Source: a virus. From it: a stretch of 20,719 nt of DNA. The stretch is from positions 1-20,719 of IMG/VR virus record IMGVR_UViG_3300042505_000558, one strand, 5' to 3'. The translations under genes and the position numbers were made by a program. Under the pieces are notes generated by a model, which searched no databases, had not been told where the DNA came from, and was given only the letters and a program-made list of their open reading frames with translations. Each line of letters starts with the position of its first letter. Positions within the stretch are counted from its first letter, which is position 1. Below, in pieces: positions 7,845 to 18,225 of this stretch.

Positions 7845-8236
7845 TTTACGTAGAAGTAGCCGGCACAAAGAAGATAGAACTTCTTAAAGAGGCTTGCTAC
7901 TTCTATTTAAAACGGCTAAATATCTATAAGAAGACAATACCCTTAGATATCTATATCCACGTTTGTCGAATGGTTGTTTCTGGCCATTGTGCGTTTAACC
8001 ATGATTTTAAAGAACCAGAAATAACGGTATCACTTAACAAGAAACTAAGTGAAGAAGAGTTGTTAATAACGCTGGCACATGAATTGGTTCATGCCAGGCA
8101 GTTCCTTAGGAAGCAACTGACTAATGAGGGTAGAATACATTATTGGAAAGGTGTGGCTACTGATAATGAAGAATGGGAAGATGAAGCCTATGAACTTGAA
8201 CAAAATTTATATAGTGATTATTTAACATGGAAATAA
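7841..8236 (+). CDS. HExxH zinc metallopeptidase-like protein
   Basis: A 131-residue protein with a zinc-protease signature H80-E81-L-V-H84 in a helix (TLAHELVHARQF); a candidate third ligand is E115 in WEDEAYELE, the arrangement used by gluzincin-type families such as SprT-like and ImmA/IrrE peptidases. A Cys pair (C42, C50) lies upstream. The start overlaps the helicase stop (ATGA) with no separate ribosome-binding site, implying translational coupling to the helicase, so its dose is tied to the fork. A role in removing protein blocks from DNA (SprT-like) or in cleaving a host regulator (ImmA-like) are both possible; neither is shown. Catalytic residues look intact. Confidence 0.8.
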   Translation: MIYVEVAGTKKIELLKEACYFYLKRLNIYKKTIPLDIYIHVCRMVVSGHCAFNHDFKEPEITVSLNKKLSEEELLITLAHELVHARQFLRKQLTNEGRIHYWKGVATDNEEWEDEAYELEQNLYSDYLTWK

Positions 8237-9336
8237 CCAGAGAAGATGGCCTGTATTGTTTAAAAGCATTTAAAGATTATTTTGATAACTTTGATAATAT
8301 TGAACAATACATGCGTGATGAGAAATTAAAGTCGCTTGAGAATATGCCTGCGACTTTATTTCCAATTGAGGATGATTTGTTCTCAGATTTTGATATGCAC
8401 CCGAATGATATGGATATTGAAGTGTGTGAAATTCCAGGTGAACAATGGGAGACGCTAATGAAGATTACGTCCTCACATATCAATAAAGCTCCAGTTGGTC
8501 GAAATATTCAATTGGCTGTCCGTGAAAAGAAAACTAGTAAAGTTTTAGGGTTTATTCGTTTAGGTTCTCCAGTCATATACATGCGCCCACGTAATGAATA
8601 CATTGGACATGTGTTCTCACAAACATCGGAAGGGTCCAAACGATTTAACGAAGCAACTATGATGGGTTTTGTTATTGTACCTGCACAACCGTTTGGATTC
8701 AACTATCTTGGTGGTAAATTATTATCAGCGATTTGTACCTCACATGAAGTTAGACAAATCTGTAATAAAAAATATAATATGAATATGTGTTTGTTTGAAA
8801 CTACCAGTTTATATGGAAGTAGTAAAACAGTATCACAATATGACGGCATGAAACCATATATACGATTTAAGGGTTTGACGGATTCTGATTTTGTTCCAAT
8901 GATGCACGGTGAAAGATATTGGAGTCTAAAAAAATATCTAGAGGATAGATATGGTGACTTATTGGAAGGCGAGGAATCAACCACAAGTCGCAAATTGAGA
9001 ACGTTCACCAAGATGATAGCATTAACCAAAGCTGTTCTAAAAGGAACACCCGATGGTGATGATTTCAATAAAACTATTGAAAATGCCAAGGCTTTGACTG
9101 AAAAGAAAAGATATTATATTTCTGATTATGGTTTTAAAAATACAACTGAATATGTTGGTAACAAAACCGATACATTAGTACCTGGTGAAAACTACGAGAA
9201 ACACAATTTAGAAAATATTATTGAGTGGTGGAAAAGTAAAGCGGCCAATCGTTATGAAACTTTAAAATCAGAAGGTCGATTAAGAAAAGAATTAGAAATC
9301 TGGACATCTGGAAAAGATATTCAGATAATTAGATAA
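8227..9336 (+). CDS. DruA/DUF4338-like protein of the replication operon
   Basis: A 369-residue protein whose middle (about 88-220) resembles the DUF4338 domain found in DruA of Druantia anti-phage systems. In order: VGRNIQLAVRE, VLGFIRLGSPV, R-x-EYIG, FVIVPAQPFGFNYLGGKLLSAI, YNMNMCLFETTSLYG and a YIRFKG end. These line up with DUF4338 elements (GR-x-L-x-YL, LG-x-I-x-F, RD-x-x-IGW, RFLILP-x-V, LASHLL, YG-x-x-P-x-LLETFVD). The C-terminal third is helical and charged. No obvious nuclease or ATPase motif is seen. It overlaps the metallopeptidase by 10 bases. The family call is from recalled patterns and needs a profile search; a DNA-binding or processing role is inferred from its replication context. 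Confidence 0.6.
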   Translation: MEITREDGLYCLKAFKDYFDNFDNIEQYMRDEKLKSLENMPATLFPIEDDLFSDFDMHPNDMDIEVCEIPGEQWETLMKITSSHINKAPVGRNIQLAVREKKTSKVLGFIRLGSPVIYMRPRNEYIGHVFSQTSEGSKRFNEATMMGFVIVPAQPFGFNYLGGKLLSAICTSHEVRQICNKKYNMNMCLFETTSLYGSSKTVSQYDGMKPYIRFKGLTDSDFVPMMHGERYWSLKKYLEDRYGDLLEGEESTTSRKLRTFTKMIALTKAVLKGTPDGDDFNKTIENAKALTEKKRYYISDYGFKNTTEYVGNKTDTLVPGENYEKHNLENIIEWWKSKAANRYETLKSEGRLRKELEIWTSGKDIQIIR

Positions 9337-13613: not shown

Positions 13614-14789
13614 ATGAAAAATATAAAACACTTCCTAAAAGAACAGACCGAGGGTGAAGGTGAAAAACTCAAGCATATTGAGCACCTAGAAGACCATCCT
13701 ATCAATGATGGCGCTAAGGGGTTTCAACATGCAGTTGGCGCTTTACAAAAAGTAAAGCAACATGTTGATATGAAACATACAAGTCCTGATTTAGCCATGA
13801 AACATGATGGTTCTCCATCTATTGTGTATGGACACCATCCTGATACCGGTAAATTCTTTGTCGCTTCAAAGAGTGCATTTAATAAAACACCAAAAATCAA
13901 TTACACAAATGCAGATATTGAGGCCAATCATGGTCATGCTCCAGGTTTGGTTGATAAATTAAAATCAGCTTTAAAACATCTACCTAAAGTTTCACCTAAA
14001 AAGGGTGTGTTTCAAGGTGATGTTTTATATTCAGAAGGTGATGTCAAAAAAGACTCAGGTAAAGTTCAATTTAAACCAAATACTATTACATATTCAGCTA
14101 AAGAAAATAGTCCAGACGGTCAAAAAATAGCAAAATCTAAATTTGGATTATATACACATACAGAATATCGTGGTAATGATAGTGCTTCTATGAACGCTCA
14201 TTTTGATCCAGATTTAACTAAATTTAAAGACCATCCAGATGTTTATCATAGAGAACCTGGCCATGACACATCTAAAGTTAGTATTAGTCCAGAAGAAAAA
14301 GAGCAATATGACCACCATTTAAAAGCTGCTATGGATTTACACACAAAACATGGCCATCAAATGTATGGCCCAATTGAAAAAGTGAAAGACCATGTAAAAA
14401 CATATATCAATACAACTGTTAGGACCGGAGAAGAACCAAGTTCTGAAGGTTTACAACACCATCTGATAACTAATTATGGTAAAGCTATTGATAAGTTAAA
14501 AACACCACAATCTAAAAATAAAAAATCTGACGAATTAAAAGGCCACGTTAATCATGTTCAGGTTAATCAAAAACATTTTGAGAATTTCTTTAAATTACAT
14601 AGACACTTACAAGTTGCTAAAGATTCCTTAGTTCGTTCATTATCCAAACACACTGGTGGACTAGACCATGAAATTGCTGGCAAAAAAGTCAAACCAGAAG
14701 GTTTTGTGATTAACCACGAAGGCCGCCCAACAAAATTGAATGATAGACATGAATTTAATAAGATGAACTTTTTGGCGAGGAATCCATGA
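13614..14789 (+). CDS. DUF6267-type ligase-fold nucleotidyltransferase, capsid-targeting-like N-terminus
   Basis: A 391-residue protein. It carries the covalent nucleotidyltransferase signature: motif I K63-H-D65-G66 (MKHDGSPSIVYG), a motif III-like VFQGDVLY at 132-139, a KFGLYTHTEYRG segment near 176-187, motif IV E362-G363-F-V-I and motif V K374-L. SAFNKTPKINYTNADI and FKPNTITYSA match the DUF6267 family of phage proteins as I remember it. It may therefore seal or cap nucleic-acid ends by a Lys-AMP intermediate, though the substrate is unknown. The N-terminus MKNIKHFLKE has F7-L8 and E10, like the T4 capsid-targeting sequence MKTYQEFIAE cleaved after E10. Rich in His and Lys. First gene of the late unit; its stop overlaps the next start. 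Confidence 0.75.
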   Translation: MKNIKHFLKEQTEGEGEKLKHIEHLEDHPINDGAKGFQHAVGALQKVKQHVDMKHTSPDLAMKHDGSPSIVYGHHPDTGKFFVASKSAFNKTPKINYTNADIEANHGHAPGLVDKLKSALKHLPKVSPKKGVFQGDVLYSEGDVKKDSGKVQFKPNTITYSAKENSPDGQKIAKSKFGLYTHTEYRGNDSASMNAHFDPDLTKFKDHPDVYHREPGHDTSKVSISPEEKEQYDHHLKAAMDLHTKHGHQMYGPIEKVKDHVKTYINTTVRTGEEPSSEGLQHHLITNYGKAIDKLKTPQSKNKKSDELKGHVNHVQVNQKHFENFFKLHRHLQVAKDSLVRSLSKHTGGLDHEIAGKKVKPEGFVINHEGRPTKLNDRHEFNKMNFLARNP

Positions 14790-15766
14790 TAAATTTTAGC
14801 GAATTATTATCAGAAGGTCGCGGCGTTATAAATGCTACCAATGAAAGACACATGAAGAATTACTTGATGCCACATCAAGGCTCTGGTGAATTTTCCCATA
14901 CAACAGCCAAAGACCATGGTGAGTTGCCAGCTGGGTCTAAAGTTAAAATTAATAAAGTAGAATGGAATTATCCAACACCCAAATCGACACAGGGTAAATG
15001 GCACGTAGAAGCGGAAGACGAGAAAGGTAATAAACATTACATGCCTGCTTCTAAATTATACAAACCTGGCGAAGAATCTGAAAATAAAGGCCACAAATAT
15101 GAAAAAGACTTTGTTGAGAGATTGAAAACACATGGTATTATGCCAAAACATTTAGCTGGTGCAGGTTCTACAGCTGGTACCGATTTCGTGGCGGAACATA
15201 AGAAAAAAGGTGAATTTCATGCCGGTACAGTTAATGGTGATTTATTAGAAGGCGAAACAAAAGAAGGTGTTACTGCCGCTATGGGCCAATTAACAGTCCA
15301 TCATAATAAAGAAAAAGGTTGGCACATTAGTGATAAAGCTCGTGCTTTGAGACCTAAGTATGCTGCAGCAATTGAAAAGGCTGGTATAATTGACCATATG
15401 AATAATCATATTCCTGATCCAGAACAACAAGAAAAAACAGCATCTGGTCGAGCAAAAACTATTAGTGTTAAACATCCTGATTTGGAACCAGCACATGATT
15501 ATTTGAAAGACCATCATGTCAAATTACTACAAGTTGGTGGATATGGTACATACAGTGTGGGCGGAAAAGATGTAACTGGCCATGGTCTTCCATCTATATC
15601 AGGTAAGGGTAAATGGAGTATTAGGCAGAAAGCTGAAAAACAAACGAATGCTAGAACTGTTGCTTTTCAGCCTGATGGTAAAAAAGGTTTGGATAAAAGT
15701 CATGTAGATTTGGATAATGACGAACATCTACAACAATTTAAGAAAACATTAGGACATATCGATTAA
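14786..15766 (+). CDS. PD-(D/E)XK nuclease-like protein, capsid-targeting-like N-terminus
   Basis: A 326-residue protein without a family I recognise. Residues 46-95 look like a small beta-barrel (GELPAGSKVKINKVEW, KWHVEAEDEKGN). Residues 101-185 fit a PD-(D/E)XK core: helix with E106 (GHKYEKDFVERL), a strand ending D133 (GTDFVAE), then E157-x-K159 (LLEGETKEG), and Q168 on the next helix (AMGQL). Residues 215-326 are basic with a GGYGTYSVGG hairpin. It may cut or bind DNA, like a resolvase or recombination nuclease; this is fold-pattern inference. The N-terminus MINFSELLSE-G has L7-L8 and E10 before Gly, fitting the T4 prohead protease rule (L/I)-x-E|(A/G/S). Start overlaps the ligase-like stop in ATGA with GAGGA upstream. 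Confidence 0.7.
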   Translation: MINFSELLSEGRGVINATNERHMKNYLMPHQGSGEFSHTTAKDHGELPAGSKVKINKVEWNYPTPKSTQGKWHVEAEDEKGNKHYMPASKLYKPGEESENKGHKYEKDFVERLKTHGIMPKHLAGAGSTAGTDFVAEHKKKGEFHAGTVNGDLLEGETKEGVTAAMGQLTVHHNKEKGWHISDKARALRPKYAAAIEKAGIIDHMNNHIPDPEQQEKTASGRAKTISVKHPDLEPAHDYLKDHHVKLLQVGGYGTYSVGGKDVTGHGLPSISGKGKWSIRQKAEKQTNARTVAFQPDGKKGLDKSHVDLDNDEHLQQFKKTLGHID

Positions 15767-15767
15767 A

Positions 15768-16382
15768 ATGATTTTAAACGAAGATTATTTAATGGAAAGT
15801 AATTTGCACATGTTTGATGTGGATGATACTCTATTCCATACTACGGCCAAAATCCATGTAAAGAATTCGAAAACTGGAGAAACAGTTAAGACATTATCTA
15901 ATAGCGAGTTCAATACTCACACTCTGCCGCCGAATCATCATTATGATTTCAATGAGTTTAGAAATGCTGATAAATTTCACAAAGAATCTAAACCAATCTC
16001 TAAGATGATTGATAAAATCAAAAAGGTTCACAAAAATATTCGTGGAAAAGAAGGAAGTAAGGTCATACTAAATACAGCAAGGGCCGACTTTGACAACAAA
16101 GAAAAGTTCTTAGATAAGTTCAGACAACACGGAATTGACATTGATAAAATACATGTTGAACGTGCTGGTAATATTCCAGGTGATGAACATCCAGCTGAGA
16201 AGAAAGCTCAAGTTGTTCGTAATCATTTAGCTCGCCATGATTATAAAAATGTAACTTTATATGATGATAATAAAAGTAATTTAAATAGGTTGTTGAAAAT
16301 GAAACAAGAATATCCTCTTGTTAAATTTCACGCATATCATGTTCAACCAAATGGAAGTGTAAAGAAACATAACAATGAGTAA
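15768..16382 (+). CDS. HAD-superfamily phosphatase-like protein
   Basis: A 204-residue protein. HAD motif I is F-D17-V-D19-D20-T21, motif II T103 in ILNTARADFD, motif III a Lys near 145-146 (PAEKKAQVV), motif IV D166-D167 in LYDDNKSNL. Phage HAD proteins of this pattern are related to the 3'-phosphatase half of T4 polynucleotide kinase, though substrate cannot be read here. The annotated ATG at 15768 follows the previous stop by one base with a poor ribosome-binding site; an ATG at 15792 is an alternative. With 15768, the start MILNEDYLME-S again puts L8 and E10 where the T4 capsid-targeting peptide has them. It overlaps the next gene by eight bases. Confidence 0.8.
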   Translation: MILNEDYLMESNLHMFDVDDTLFHTTAKIHVKNSKTGETVKTLSNSEFNTHTLPPNHHYDFNEFRNADKFHKESKPISKMIDKIKKVHKNIRGKEGSKVILNTARADFDNKEKFLDKFRQHGIDIDKIHVERAGNIPGDEHPAEKKAQVVRNHLARHDYKNVTLYDDNKSNLNRLLKMKQEYPLVKFHAYHVQPNGSVKKHNNE

Positions 16383-18225
16383 AATTAAATCCTTTATTGA
16401 ACTTATGGAAGAAGAAACCAAATCAGTAGCAGTCTTGTTTGGTCGGATGAATCCGCCTACAAAGGGCCATGAAGAAAATGTCAATGGCCTAAAAGACTTA
16501 GCTAAGAAACACAACGCTGACCATTTGGTTGTGGCTTCTCGTTCTCACGACCCCAAAAAGAATCCATTATCTCCAGAAGATAAAGAGAAACACTTAAAAC
16601 GGGCATTTCCAGGTACTAACATTAAAGTTGCTACTAAAGAACAACCAACAATCTTACACCATGCATCTGCATTGAGTGGCCAAGGTTACACACACTTACA
16701 TGTTGTTGCTGGTTCAGACCGAGTGGAAGAATACAAACGATTACTGAATCAATATAATGGAGTTTCAGGTAAACACGGAACATATAATTTTAAAAAGATT
16801 ACAGTTCAATCTACAGGCGAAAGAAAACAAGGTGTATCTGGTACAGATATGCGTAATCATGTTAAGAATAATGATTATAATTCTTTCAAATCGAATTTAC
16901 CATCAGCTACACAAAATAACGAGAAGCATTCTAAAGAATTATTCCATGACGTTAAAAAAGGTATGGGCATCCATGAAAATGTAAATCGTGGGATGTTTAA
17001 AGCTTTATTCTTAGTTGGTGGTCCGGGTTCAGGTAAAGATGTTATCATACATGAAGCCGTAGCTGAACGAAATGCTGTAGAAATCAATTCCAACAAAGCA
17101 TATGATTTCTTATCTGATAAAAAGAAACTATCAGAAGAAACTAAAGACCACCAATACAATGCTATTCGTAATCGGTCAGCATTGGTCATCAATGGCGCAT
17201 CTGATGATAAAGATAAAATTACTTCCATTAGAGAAGAATTAGAAGAATTGGGTTATACTTCAATGATGGTGTTTGTTACAACCACAAATGAAGTATCTCA
17301 AAATAGAAATAACCAACATTCAAGAGTTATTTCTGAACAAATTAGAAATGAAAAGTGGGTAAAATCACAAGAGAATTTGAATCACTTTTATGATGAGTTT
17401 GAGTACTTTTTAGAATTTGATAATTCGGTAAATTTACAAAACTCAAACATTCTAATTAAAGAAGCAAAACAGTCCGAAATCAGTGAAATCTGTAACGAGA
17501 TATCCTATTTCTTTAAAACTAAAGCTTATAACGAGAGTGCTACCAATTGGTTACGCTCACATGGAAAAATAAACATCAACGAAGATGTTAATACATTATT
17601 TGAAAAGGAACTACACCATGACAACTATACTGACATTCGTAAAAAATATAATCACAAAAATTACTCAAGTCTTAAATCCAAACATAGCCCAGCCGCCAAA
17701 GGCGTGCGAGCAGAAAACAATGCCCCAGTCGACCAAATGCTCAGAAAATCCGGCAAAATCGATGACGTCCGAGACGGCGACATCCGCGGCAATAACGGCT
17801 ACGCCTTTAGAACCTACGAAGAAACGAGGCAGGAACAGACGGAGCCGACGCTCAAAATCAACCCAGAGCCAAAAGAACCAAAGTTCAACACCGACAAAGA
17901 AAGTCCAAAACTCAAACGAAAAGCGGGGGTAAATCTATTACCTGGCAAATCAATTAACGGCACTGGTGTTGGTCCAACATACGATACTCGCCAACAAGGC
18001 GGTGTATATCCAATGGGTGGATTGGGAAATACAACATATCGTGAAAGTTTCAATTCATTTAGAACGAAACTAAAACAAGAATCTATTGATGACCCAGGTG
18101 CTTCAGATATGGGGACATTTGGTGGTATGGGTAACGGTGCCAATAAAGAACCATTACAAACACAATTAGATAAATTAGCAACAACGTCAGAAAATAAACC
18201 AACAAAAAAGAAAAGAAATAAATAG
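16375..18225 (+). CDS. NMNAT-like nucleotidyltransferase fused to a P-loop kinase-like domain and a long tail
   Basis: A 616-residue three-part protein. Residues 17-177: adenylyl/cytidylyltransferase fold with FGRMNPPT-K-G-H32 (the (H/T)xGH motif) and V-S-G-T-D-M-R at 154-160 (the S-x-T-x-x-R phosphate motif). Residues 206-355: P-loop G215-GPGSGKD222, then LVINGASDD and an R-rich helix, like polynucleotide or zeta-type kinases; the pairing also recalls NadR (NMN adenylyltransferase plus ribosylnicotinamide kinase). Residues 390-616: low-complexity polar tail. The N-terminus MSKIKSFIELMEEE resembles the capsid-targeting peptide in F7-I8, but E is at 9, not 10. The stretch 17701-17880 has far higher GC than the rest. 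Possible roles: end healing of nucleic acids or NAD+ restoration. Confidence 0.75.
   Translation: MSKIKSFIELMEEETKSVAVLFGRMNPPTKGHEENVNGLKDLAKKHNADHLVVASRSHDPKKNPLSPEDKEKHLKRAFPGTNIKVATKEQPTILHHASALSGQGYTHLHVVAGSDRVEEYKRLLNQYNGVSGKHGTYNFKKITVQSTGERKQGVSGTDMRNHVKNNDYNSFKSNLPSATQNNEKHSKELFHDVKKGMGIHENVNRGMFKALFLVGGPGSGKDVIIHEAVAERNAVEINSNKAYDFLSDKKKLSEETKDHQYNAIRNRSALVINGASDDKDKITSIREELEELGYTSMMVFVTTTNEVSQNRNNQHSRVISEQIRNEKWVKSQENLNHFYDEFEYFLEFDNSVNLQNSNILIKEAKQSEISEICNEISYFFKTKAYNESATNWLRSHGKININEDVNTLFEKELHHDNYTDIRKKYNHKNYSSLKSKHSPAAKGVRAENNAPVDQMLRKSGKIDDVRDGDIRGNNGYAFRTYEETRQEQTEPTLKINPEPKEPKFNTDKESPKLKRKAGVNLLPGKSINGTGVGPTYDTRQQGGVYPMGGLGNTTYRESFNSFRTKLKQESIDDPGASDMGTFGGMGNGANKEPLQTQLDKLATTSENKPTKKKRNK
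17618..17932 (+). CDS. Possible overprinted ORF inside the nucleotidyltransferase/kinase gene
   Basis: A 104-residue ORF in the +2 frame, from ATG at 17618 with AAAAGGA eight bases upstream, to TAA at 17930-17932. The product is Ser/Thr/Pro/Lys/Arg-rich (ending KKRGRNRRSRRSKS then a Gln/Ser tail). Its span nearly coincides with the GC-rich patch. However the main frame remains convincing protein throughout, and the S/T/P/A bias is what C at the main-frame third position would produce. Weak candidate only. Confidence 0.2.
   Translation: MTTILTFVKNIITKITQVLNPNIAQPPKACEQKTMPQSTKCSENPAKSMTSETATSAAITATPLEPTKKRGRNRRSRRSKSTQSQKNQSSTPTKKVQNSNEKRG
17690..17930. other. GC-rich patch with altered codon use inside the 616-aa gene
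   Basis: By hand count 97 of 180 bases at 17701-17880 are G or C (about 54%), versus 21-22 of 60 in sample lines before and after (about 36%). The main frame here uses C- or G-ending codons (GAC, GGC, ATC, CGC, TAC, GCC) where the rest of the window prefers A/T-ending ones. The encoded protein is not visibly broken. It may mark a segment acquired from a higher-GC relative, or a stretch under selection in another frame. Confidence 0.7.
18217..18224 (+). promoter_or_regulatory. Late-type promoter element AATAAATA
   Basis: AATAAATA fits NATAAATA and lies 39 bases before the ATG at 18264. It overlaps the Asn-Lys-stop codons of the upstream gene. A strong AACAGGAG ribosome-binding site follows, and the 38-base intergenic gap is unusually long for this window, consistent with a new transcription start. 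Confidence 0.5.

Follow-up and report, generated by a model that had tools for sequence, protein, structure and literature searches.

By fold, the closest described systems to the protein reported here are the endonucleases HhaI and HinP1I (PDB 6uke and 2fkc) and, more weakly, the Holliday junction resolvases archaeal Hjc and RecU. HhaI is the best fold match of the protein's family and is of near-equal length (258 versus 259 aa), and HinP1I is listed among the matches too. In contrast, identity is 12%, there is no sequence-profile match and no methyltransferase partner was seen, and the protein has an extra N-terminal barrel and leader and belongs to a family found only in phages. With the Hjc/RecU resolvases it shares a PD-(D/E)XK core bearing a helix Glu, an Asp and a Glu-x-Lys, at ranks 3 and 6 of the fold matches; however, these matches span only 60-90 columns, the protein has extra domains, and the likeness is one of fold. 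Direct homologues are found in P-TIM40 (PTIM40_181), P-SSM2 (PCMG_00197) and the PHROGs family phrog_26930, where they adjoin DUF6267 and/or a cytidylyltransferase, but these are unannotated and have neither the barrel nor the leader.

For the N-terminus, the closest comparison is with the internal proteins IPI, IPII and IPIII of phage T4, in which one 10-residue leader is common to unrelated mature proteins. Residues 4 and 7 of the T4 leader serve targeting and residues 8 and 10 processing, and the gp21 protease cuts after L/I-x-E (PMC9026906). Those T4 internal proteins whose roles are known act as inhibitors of restriction enzymes (PMC12373910). The locus described here shares the leader length and register, followed by L/I-x-E and a small residue; the T4 proteins are small, whereas the cargo of this locus is enzyme-like, and the protein under study is itself nuclease-like.

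The stretch of DNA that was analysed (the window; IMG/VR virus record IMGVR_UViG_3300042505_000558, 20,719 nucleotides) is a 20.7 kb fragment of a T4-like phage, encoding a gp43-like polymerase, UvsX, a gp41-like helicase and sugar-modification genes, and then a cassette of four genes. The nuclease-like gene belongs to a T4-like freshwater virus of bacteria. An Rfam scan of the window yielded no matches. Elsewhere in the window, at 8227-9336, lies a phage-encoded relative of a defence protein, a DruA/DUF4338-like gene (Pfam DruA E 5e-12, PADLOC DruA1 E 2e-8), which adjoins an SprT-like metallopeptidase and is found in several related loci. The genes of the cassette are as follows.

13614..14789, plus strand: DUF6267 protein, candidate polynucleotide ligase/covalent nucleotidyltransferase, with leader MKNIKHFLKE (Pfam DUF6267 E 3e-93; invariant motifs)
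14786..15766, plus strand: PD-(D/E)XK nuclease-like protein, 326 aa (translation, five invariant residues, AlphaFold model, a homologue's PDB match to HhaI)
15768..16382, plus strand: HAD-family phosphatase-like protein (DVDDT), with leader MILNEDYLME (PHROG polynucleotide kinase E 3e-6; leader pattern in 7/8 members)
16375..18225, plus strand: cytidylyltransferase-like domain fused to a P-loop kinase (zeta/AAA_33-like), with leader MSKIKSFIELME (family matches; homologues in virions, PMC3037559, PMC10665884, PMC9146016)

The nuclease ORF starts with ATG, has a GAGG ribosome-binding site immediately 5', and shares a 4-base overlap with the stop of the DUF6267 gene before it. The first-pass annotation had claimed a PD-(D/E)XK-like motif set here, and the translation does carry the residues at the claimed positions (Y105-E106, G131-T132-D133-F134, G156-E157-T158-K159 and Q168). 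Scans of IMG/VR found approximately 150 loci with relatives (the best 80 of 98 in one scan and 59 in another), the freshwater ones at ~60-67% identity and the marine ones, the cyanophage P-TIM40 included, at ~22-27%. An alignment of 46 non-redundant relatives, of which 33 are from fresh water (60-67% identity) and 13 are marine (22-27%), has 24 invariant positions, and because E106, D133, E157, K159 and Q168 are all among so few, the motif goes beyond chance. Distant members show the textbook form (APDAMFM...KLEVK in P-SSM2, APDAEI...KVEVK in L069 and KPDLTI...CELK in L197); L197 has no Gln equivalent to Q168, so this residue is not universal.

The earlier remark that no named family was known for the whole protein agrees with our searches: none was found in Pfam, NCBIfam or PADLOC, the last of which assigned it no defence family, and the PHROGs match is to the unnamed phrog_26930. 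Sequence-profile searches with the window family and the marine family against PDB sequences retrieved nothing relevant, HhaI included, and no curated family was matched either. The Hjc profile (PF01870) had 0 matches in the window record; one relative gave a weak Pfam Hjc match (E 0.02). The sole bacterial match, L254 (NZ_RMVE01000006.1, a Nonlabens xiamenensis assembly), is near-identical to the P-TIM40 cyanophage region and is therefore probably contamination of the Nonlabens assembly. One contig holds two nuclease paralogues (L069:866-1591 and L069:8001-8966), one with leader and barrel and the other marine-like without the barrel. Together with the models below, these searches suggest that the protein represents a new family of restriction-enzyme-like putative nuclease.

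An AlphaFold2 model of the window protein, made with alignment input, has a mean pLDDT of 86 and consists of a short N-terminal helix, a barrel (38-87), a helix (101-115), strands (134-137, 153-159 and 167-174), helices to residue 208 and a strand-rich C-terminal domain. Within the protein we distinguish three parts.

14897..15046, plus strand: small beta barrel, residues 38-87, which marine homologues lack (model strands; PDB matches to SAWADEE/Tudor/SH3)
15083..15325, plus strand: nuclease core, residues 100-180, with E106, D133, E157-x-K159 and Q168 (alignment, model, fold match)
15461..15763, plus strand: C-terminal strand-hairpin domain, residues 226-326, with invariant Q249, G252, G254, D262, P269, R280 and K282 (alignment, model)

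The expectation that D133, E157 and K159 would sit on an alpha-beta-beta-beta core is borne out in the order of the model's elements, with E106 in helix 101-115, D133 just before strand 134-137, and E157 and K159 in strand 153-159; Q168 falls in strand 167-174, with helices next. The same strand order, taken with the fold match described below, suggests that the three side chains would cluster. The small barrel proposed ahead of the core appears as strands at 38-87, for which the PDB matches of the full-length model are SAWADEE, Tudor and SH3 folds, and the hairpin-containing C-terminal domain appears as strands 247-250, 254-257, 275-281 and 289-296.

Searched at full length against the PDB, the window model retrieved barrel matches alone, with no nuclease and none below E 1e-3; against viral models it retrieved P-SSM2 and other uncharacterised phage proteins. 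The nuclease fold match was obtained by modelling a marine homologue without the barrel instead of the full-length window protein. The two belong to one family (hhalign probability 100, E 1e-67, 234 columns), and the marine model (pLDDT 85.6) has the same helix-strand-strand-strand order. Its top PDB match is the HhaI endonuclease (E 4.1e-4, probability 1.00, TM 0.43/0.43, 204 columns), the only one below E 1e-3, followed by I-Ssp6803I, Hjc, HinP1I and RecU and, lower, by FokI and a VRR_NUC domain. It is well established that these share the PD-(D/E)XK fold. The original comparison with restriction-endonuclease-fold nucleases and Holliday junction resolvases thus stands as to the PD-(D/E)XK core, but the fold that comes closest is that of a type II restriction enzyme, not of a resolvase. 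The models support the window protein as a divergent PD-(D/E)XK endonuclease, HhaI-like in its core and C-terminal part, which would presumably be catalytic and metal-dependent.

The earlier description of this one protein was largely sound, and it had missed both the cassette and the N-terminal leader. The cassette, DUF6267 - nuclease - (HAD) - nucleotidyltransferase/kinase, is kept in well over 100 phage loci, and in loci built around the nuclease or DUF6267 the synteny of DUF6267, nuclease and nucleotidyltransferase holds in most. The freshwater order is DUF6267 - nuclease - nucleotidyltransferase/kinase and the marine order nuclease - DUF6267 - nucleotidyltransferase; in P-SSM2 the nuclease lies two genes ahead of the cytidylyltransferase. 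Besides the window, a few close relatives have the HAD gene; most cassettes do not. A glycerol-3-phosphate cytidylyltransferase role has been suggested for the neighbouring cytidylyltransferase (PMC9146016).

An alignment of 40 DUF6267 proteins shows invariant K63-x-D65-G66, E362-G-x-V365 and K374, which follow one another as motifs I, IV and V do in covalent nucleotidyltransferases; the DUF6267 EGFVAIKDGTALKL resembles T4 Rnl1 EGYVAVMKDGSHFKI. Comparison by hhalign with T4 Rnl2, Rnl1 and gp30 was not significant (probability <1%, where an unrelated pair scored 15%), and the DUF6267 profile retrieved nothing relevant among PDB sequences. Since the hhalign scores against T4 ligases are within noise, it is by motif only that we name DUF6267 a candidate ligase. 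We found no paper naming DUF6267 in the open-access literature. In L197:5974-7758 and phrog_455, DUF6267 is fused to a cytidylyltransferase domain as one protein.

Where a phage lacks this nuclease family, the gene immediately 5' of DUF6267 often has, as judged by eye, another D...(S/E)-x-K pattern: TDILF...CSMK in S-SM1 (SSM1_188), TDFTI...ISLK in Pelagibacter phage HTVC008M, TDITL...LSVK in S-CAM1 and S-RIM44, and PADIW...SLKK in Syn9 and P-SSM7. These patterns suggest that the position upstream of DUF6267 may be a nuclease slot taken by unrelated folds. Upstream genes with such patterns and no named family lie at L150:26447-27280, L149:4167-5225, L229:4763-5986, L255:2197-3927, L257:2523-3920 and L259:2754-3986.

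The four unrelated proteins of the cassette begin alike, with the leaders given above for DUF6267, the HAD protein and the nucleotidyltransferase/kinase and, for the nuclease, the following.

14786..14815, plus strand: putative capsid targeting leader MINFSELLSE, predicted cleavage before G11 (T4 ipIII/ipII register; L/I-x-E motif, PMC9026906; 49/49 freshwater homologues)

In most relatives the leader takes the form MKSFxxFLxE, and all of the cassette leaders are in the same register as the MKTYQEFIAE with which T4 IPIII and IPII start. A relaxed leader pattern was found in 86/117 DUF6267 proteins, 68/109 nucleotidyltransferase/kinases, 7/8 HAD proteins and 36/77 nucleases (34/49 of the freshwater ones), with 2.4, 1.8, 0.2 and 1.5 matches, respectively, expected from shuffled N-termini; these counts are descriptive, as the sequences counted are related to one another. 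Other ORFs of the same contigs show the pattern in 21 of 657 cases, close to their own shuffled expectation of 15.4. An L/I-x-E-type site stands right before (G/A)R in all 49 freshwater nucleases, even where the leader is otherwise different; the simple pattern is missing in ~15 of them, several of which have another N-terminus (YWERAGI...LSE). This second leader, QKKxYWERAGI...LSE before (A/G)RG, takes the place of the MKSF type in the nucleases of L028, L032, L060, L021 and L089, and often occurs where DUF6267 is two split ORFs. Marine homologues of the nuclease and of DUF6267 have no leader, so packaging cannot be general. Many more unannotated genes with an MKSF/MKTF...E leader lie inside the cassette or up to 6 kb downstream (for example L161:7179-8468, L176:7182-7832 and L194:11323-11763), and these N-termini suggest a larger set of head-packaged proteins. 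We found no publication in the open-access literature proposing these leaders or the nuclease family.

A gp21-type protease (PF03420) is encoded in 11 of 12 long related contigs and gp23 in all 12. In the N-terminal region of gp23, an LTE, LNE or LSE lies ahead of the point where, by comparison with T4, the mature protein should begin. The PD-(D/E)XK fold and capsid targeting are both already known, and packaging of the cytidylyltransferase has been published. Mass spectrometry detected the cassette cytidylyltransferase in S-SM1 virions (T4-GC190, PMC3037559), and its gene, SSM1_190, carries the leader MKKFSAFLNE. By the annotation of the respective papers, S-CREM2 virions contain the cytidylyltransferase ORF154 with its neighbours ORF155 and ORF156 (PMC10665884), and S-SZBM1 virions contain the cytidylyltransferase S-SZBM1_140 with its neighbour 139 (PMC9146016). 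The virion proteomes of these three cyanophages, S-SM1, S-CREM2 and S-SZBM1, report the cytidylyltransferase and some neighbours and do not report the nuclease; that the leaderless DUF6267 and nuclease go unreported in those virions fits the leader as the determinant.

The reading that we consider most likely, and which we favour with moderate confidence, is that the phage loads an HhaI-like nuclease into its head and delivers it with the genome, as one member of a kit for processing nucleic acids. The nuclease would be synthesised late, and MINFSELLSE, acting as a T4-type targeting sequence, would draw it into the prohead core, where the gp21-type protease would remove the leader after L-S-E (E10). 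The mature nuclease, from G11, would stay in the head through packaging and enter the next host along with the genome, the DUF6267 candidate ligase, the HAD phosphatase-like protein and the nucleotidyltransferase/kinase, there to cut or trim DNA at once, ahead of phage gene expression. Possible targets would be the DNA of the host or of a competitor, or phage DNA or RNA that is broken and has to be trimmed before it is sealed. Among the scanned genes of the window and in the marine cassettes that carry annotation, no DNA methyltransferase was labelled or matched, so the phage DNA would need other protection (lack of sites, modification or timing). Site avoidance, used as a proxy for GCGC specificity like that of HhaI, gives no more than a faint hint: the observed/expected ratio of GCGC is 0.81 in freshwater and 0.46 in marine nuclease-bearing loci and 1.12 in loci without the nuclease, and other sites are more strongly avoided. 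Marine loci L090-L148 strongly avoid CCGG (0.11 of expected), AGCT (0.30) and GTAC (0.42), as if under host restriction pressure.

An ordinary intracellular role, in host-DNA degradation or as a recombination endonuclease, with expression alongside the neighbouring replication genes and a leader-like N-terminus unused for packaging, would agree with the gene's place downstream of gp43-uvsX-gp41 and with the marine homologues, which retain the nuclease and its gene order without any leader. It also has a precedent in T4, which degrades host DNA by DenA produced after infection. Nevertheless, we think such a role unlikely, as the leader is common to unrelated neighbours, is far more frequent there than in other ORFs of the same contigs and keeps the exact T4 register, and as the L/I-x-E site is conserved in every freshwater homologue. 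Still less probable, and in our view very unlikely, is a protein that has the PD-(D/E)XK fold but is non-catalytic in vivo and serves as a DNA-binding internal head protein, condensing or piloting DNA. Packaged proteins are often DNA-binding, and the nuclease, besides having a barrel, is basic in its C-terminal part, yet the catalytic-type residues are all invariant down to 22% identity and distant members restore the canonical PD and ExK.

The packaged proteins may also make up an end-repair set, in which the nuclease trims, 3' and 5' ends are healed by the HAD protein and the P-loop kinase, and DUF6267 seals. The set would act at entry, on phage DNA that has been nicked or cut by restriction or on tRNA that has been cleaved. 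This we regard as possible, if doubtful. The HAD gene beside the P-loop kinase, with its PHROG polynucleotide kinase match, resembles a split Pnkp, and the invariant KxDG, EGxV and K of DUF6267, its likeness to T4 Rnl1 and its fusion to the nucleotidyltransferase in some phages point the same way; against this, the hhalign comparisons with T4 ligases were not significant, the HAD protein is missing from most cassettes, and the nucleotidyltransferase has no obvious repair role.

Returning to the head-packaged, injected nuclease, we tentatively propose a wider scheme for freshwater T4-like phages, in which every cargo gene gains the same leader and the virion would inject a candidate ligase and an end-processing kit, with an HhaI-like nuclease at their head, to act on nucleic acids before the first phage transcript. 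In marine relatives the slot would be taken by PD-(D/E)XK-like proteins of several kinds unrelated in sequence, so that what selection keeps may be the pairing of a nuclease with DUF6267. If this is true, some phages arrive in the cell already equipped with DNA-processing enzymes of their own; the known injected proteins of T4 are mostly small inhibitors, plus Alt. The proposal would offer a testable role for DUF6267 and its cytidylyltransferase neighbours, which occur in about 470-530 sequenced phage records and have hitherto had no explained role, and the leader would provide a simple sequence rule by which to predict head-packaged proteins in aquatic T4-like phages.
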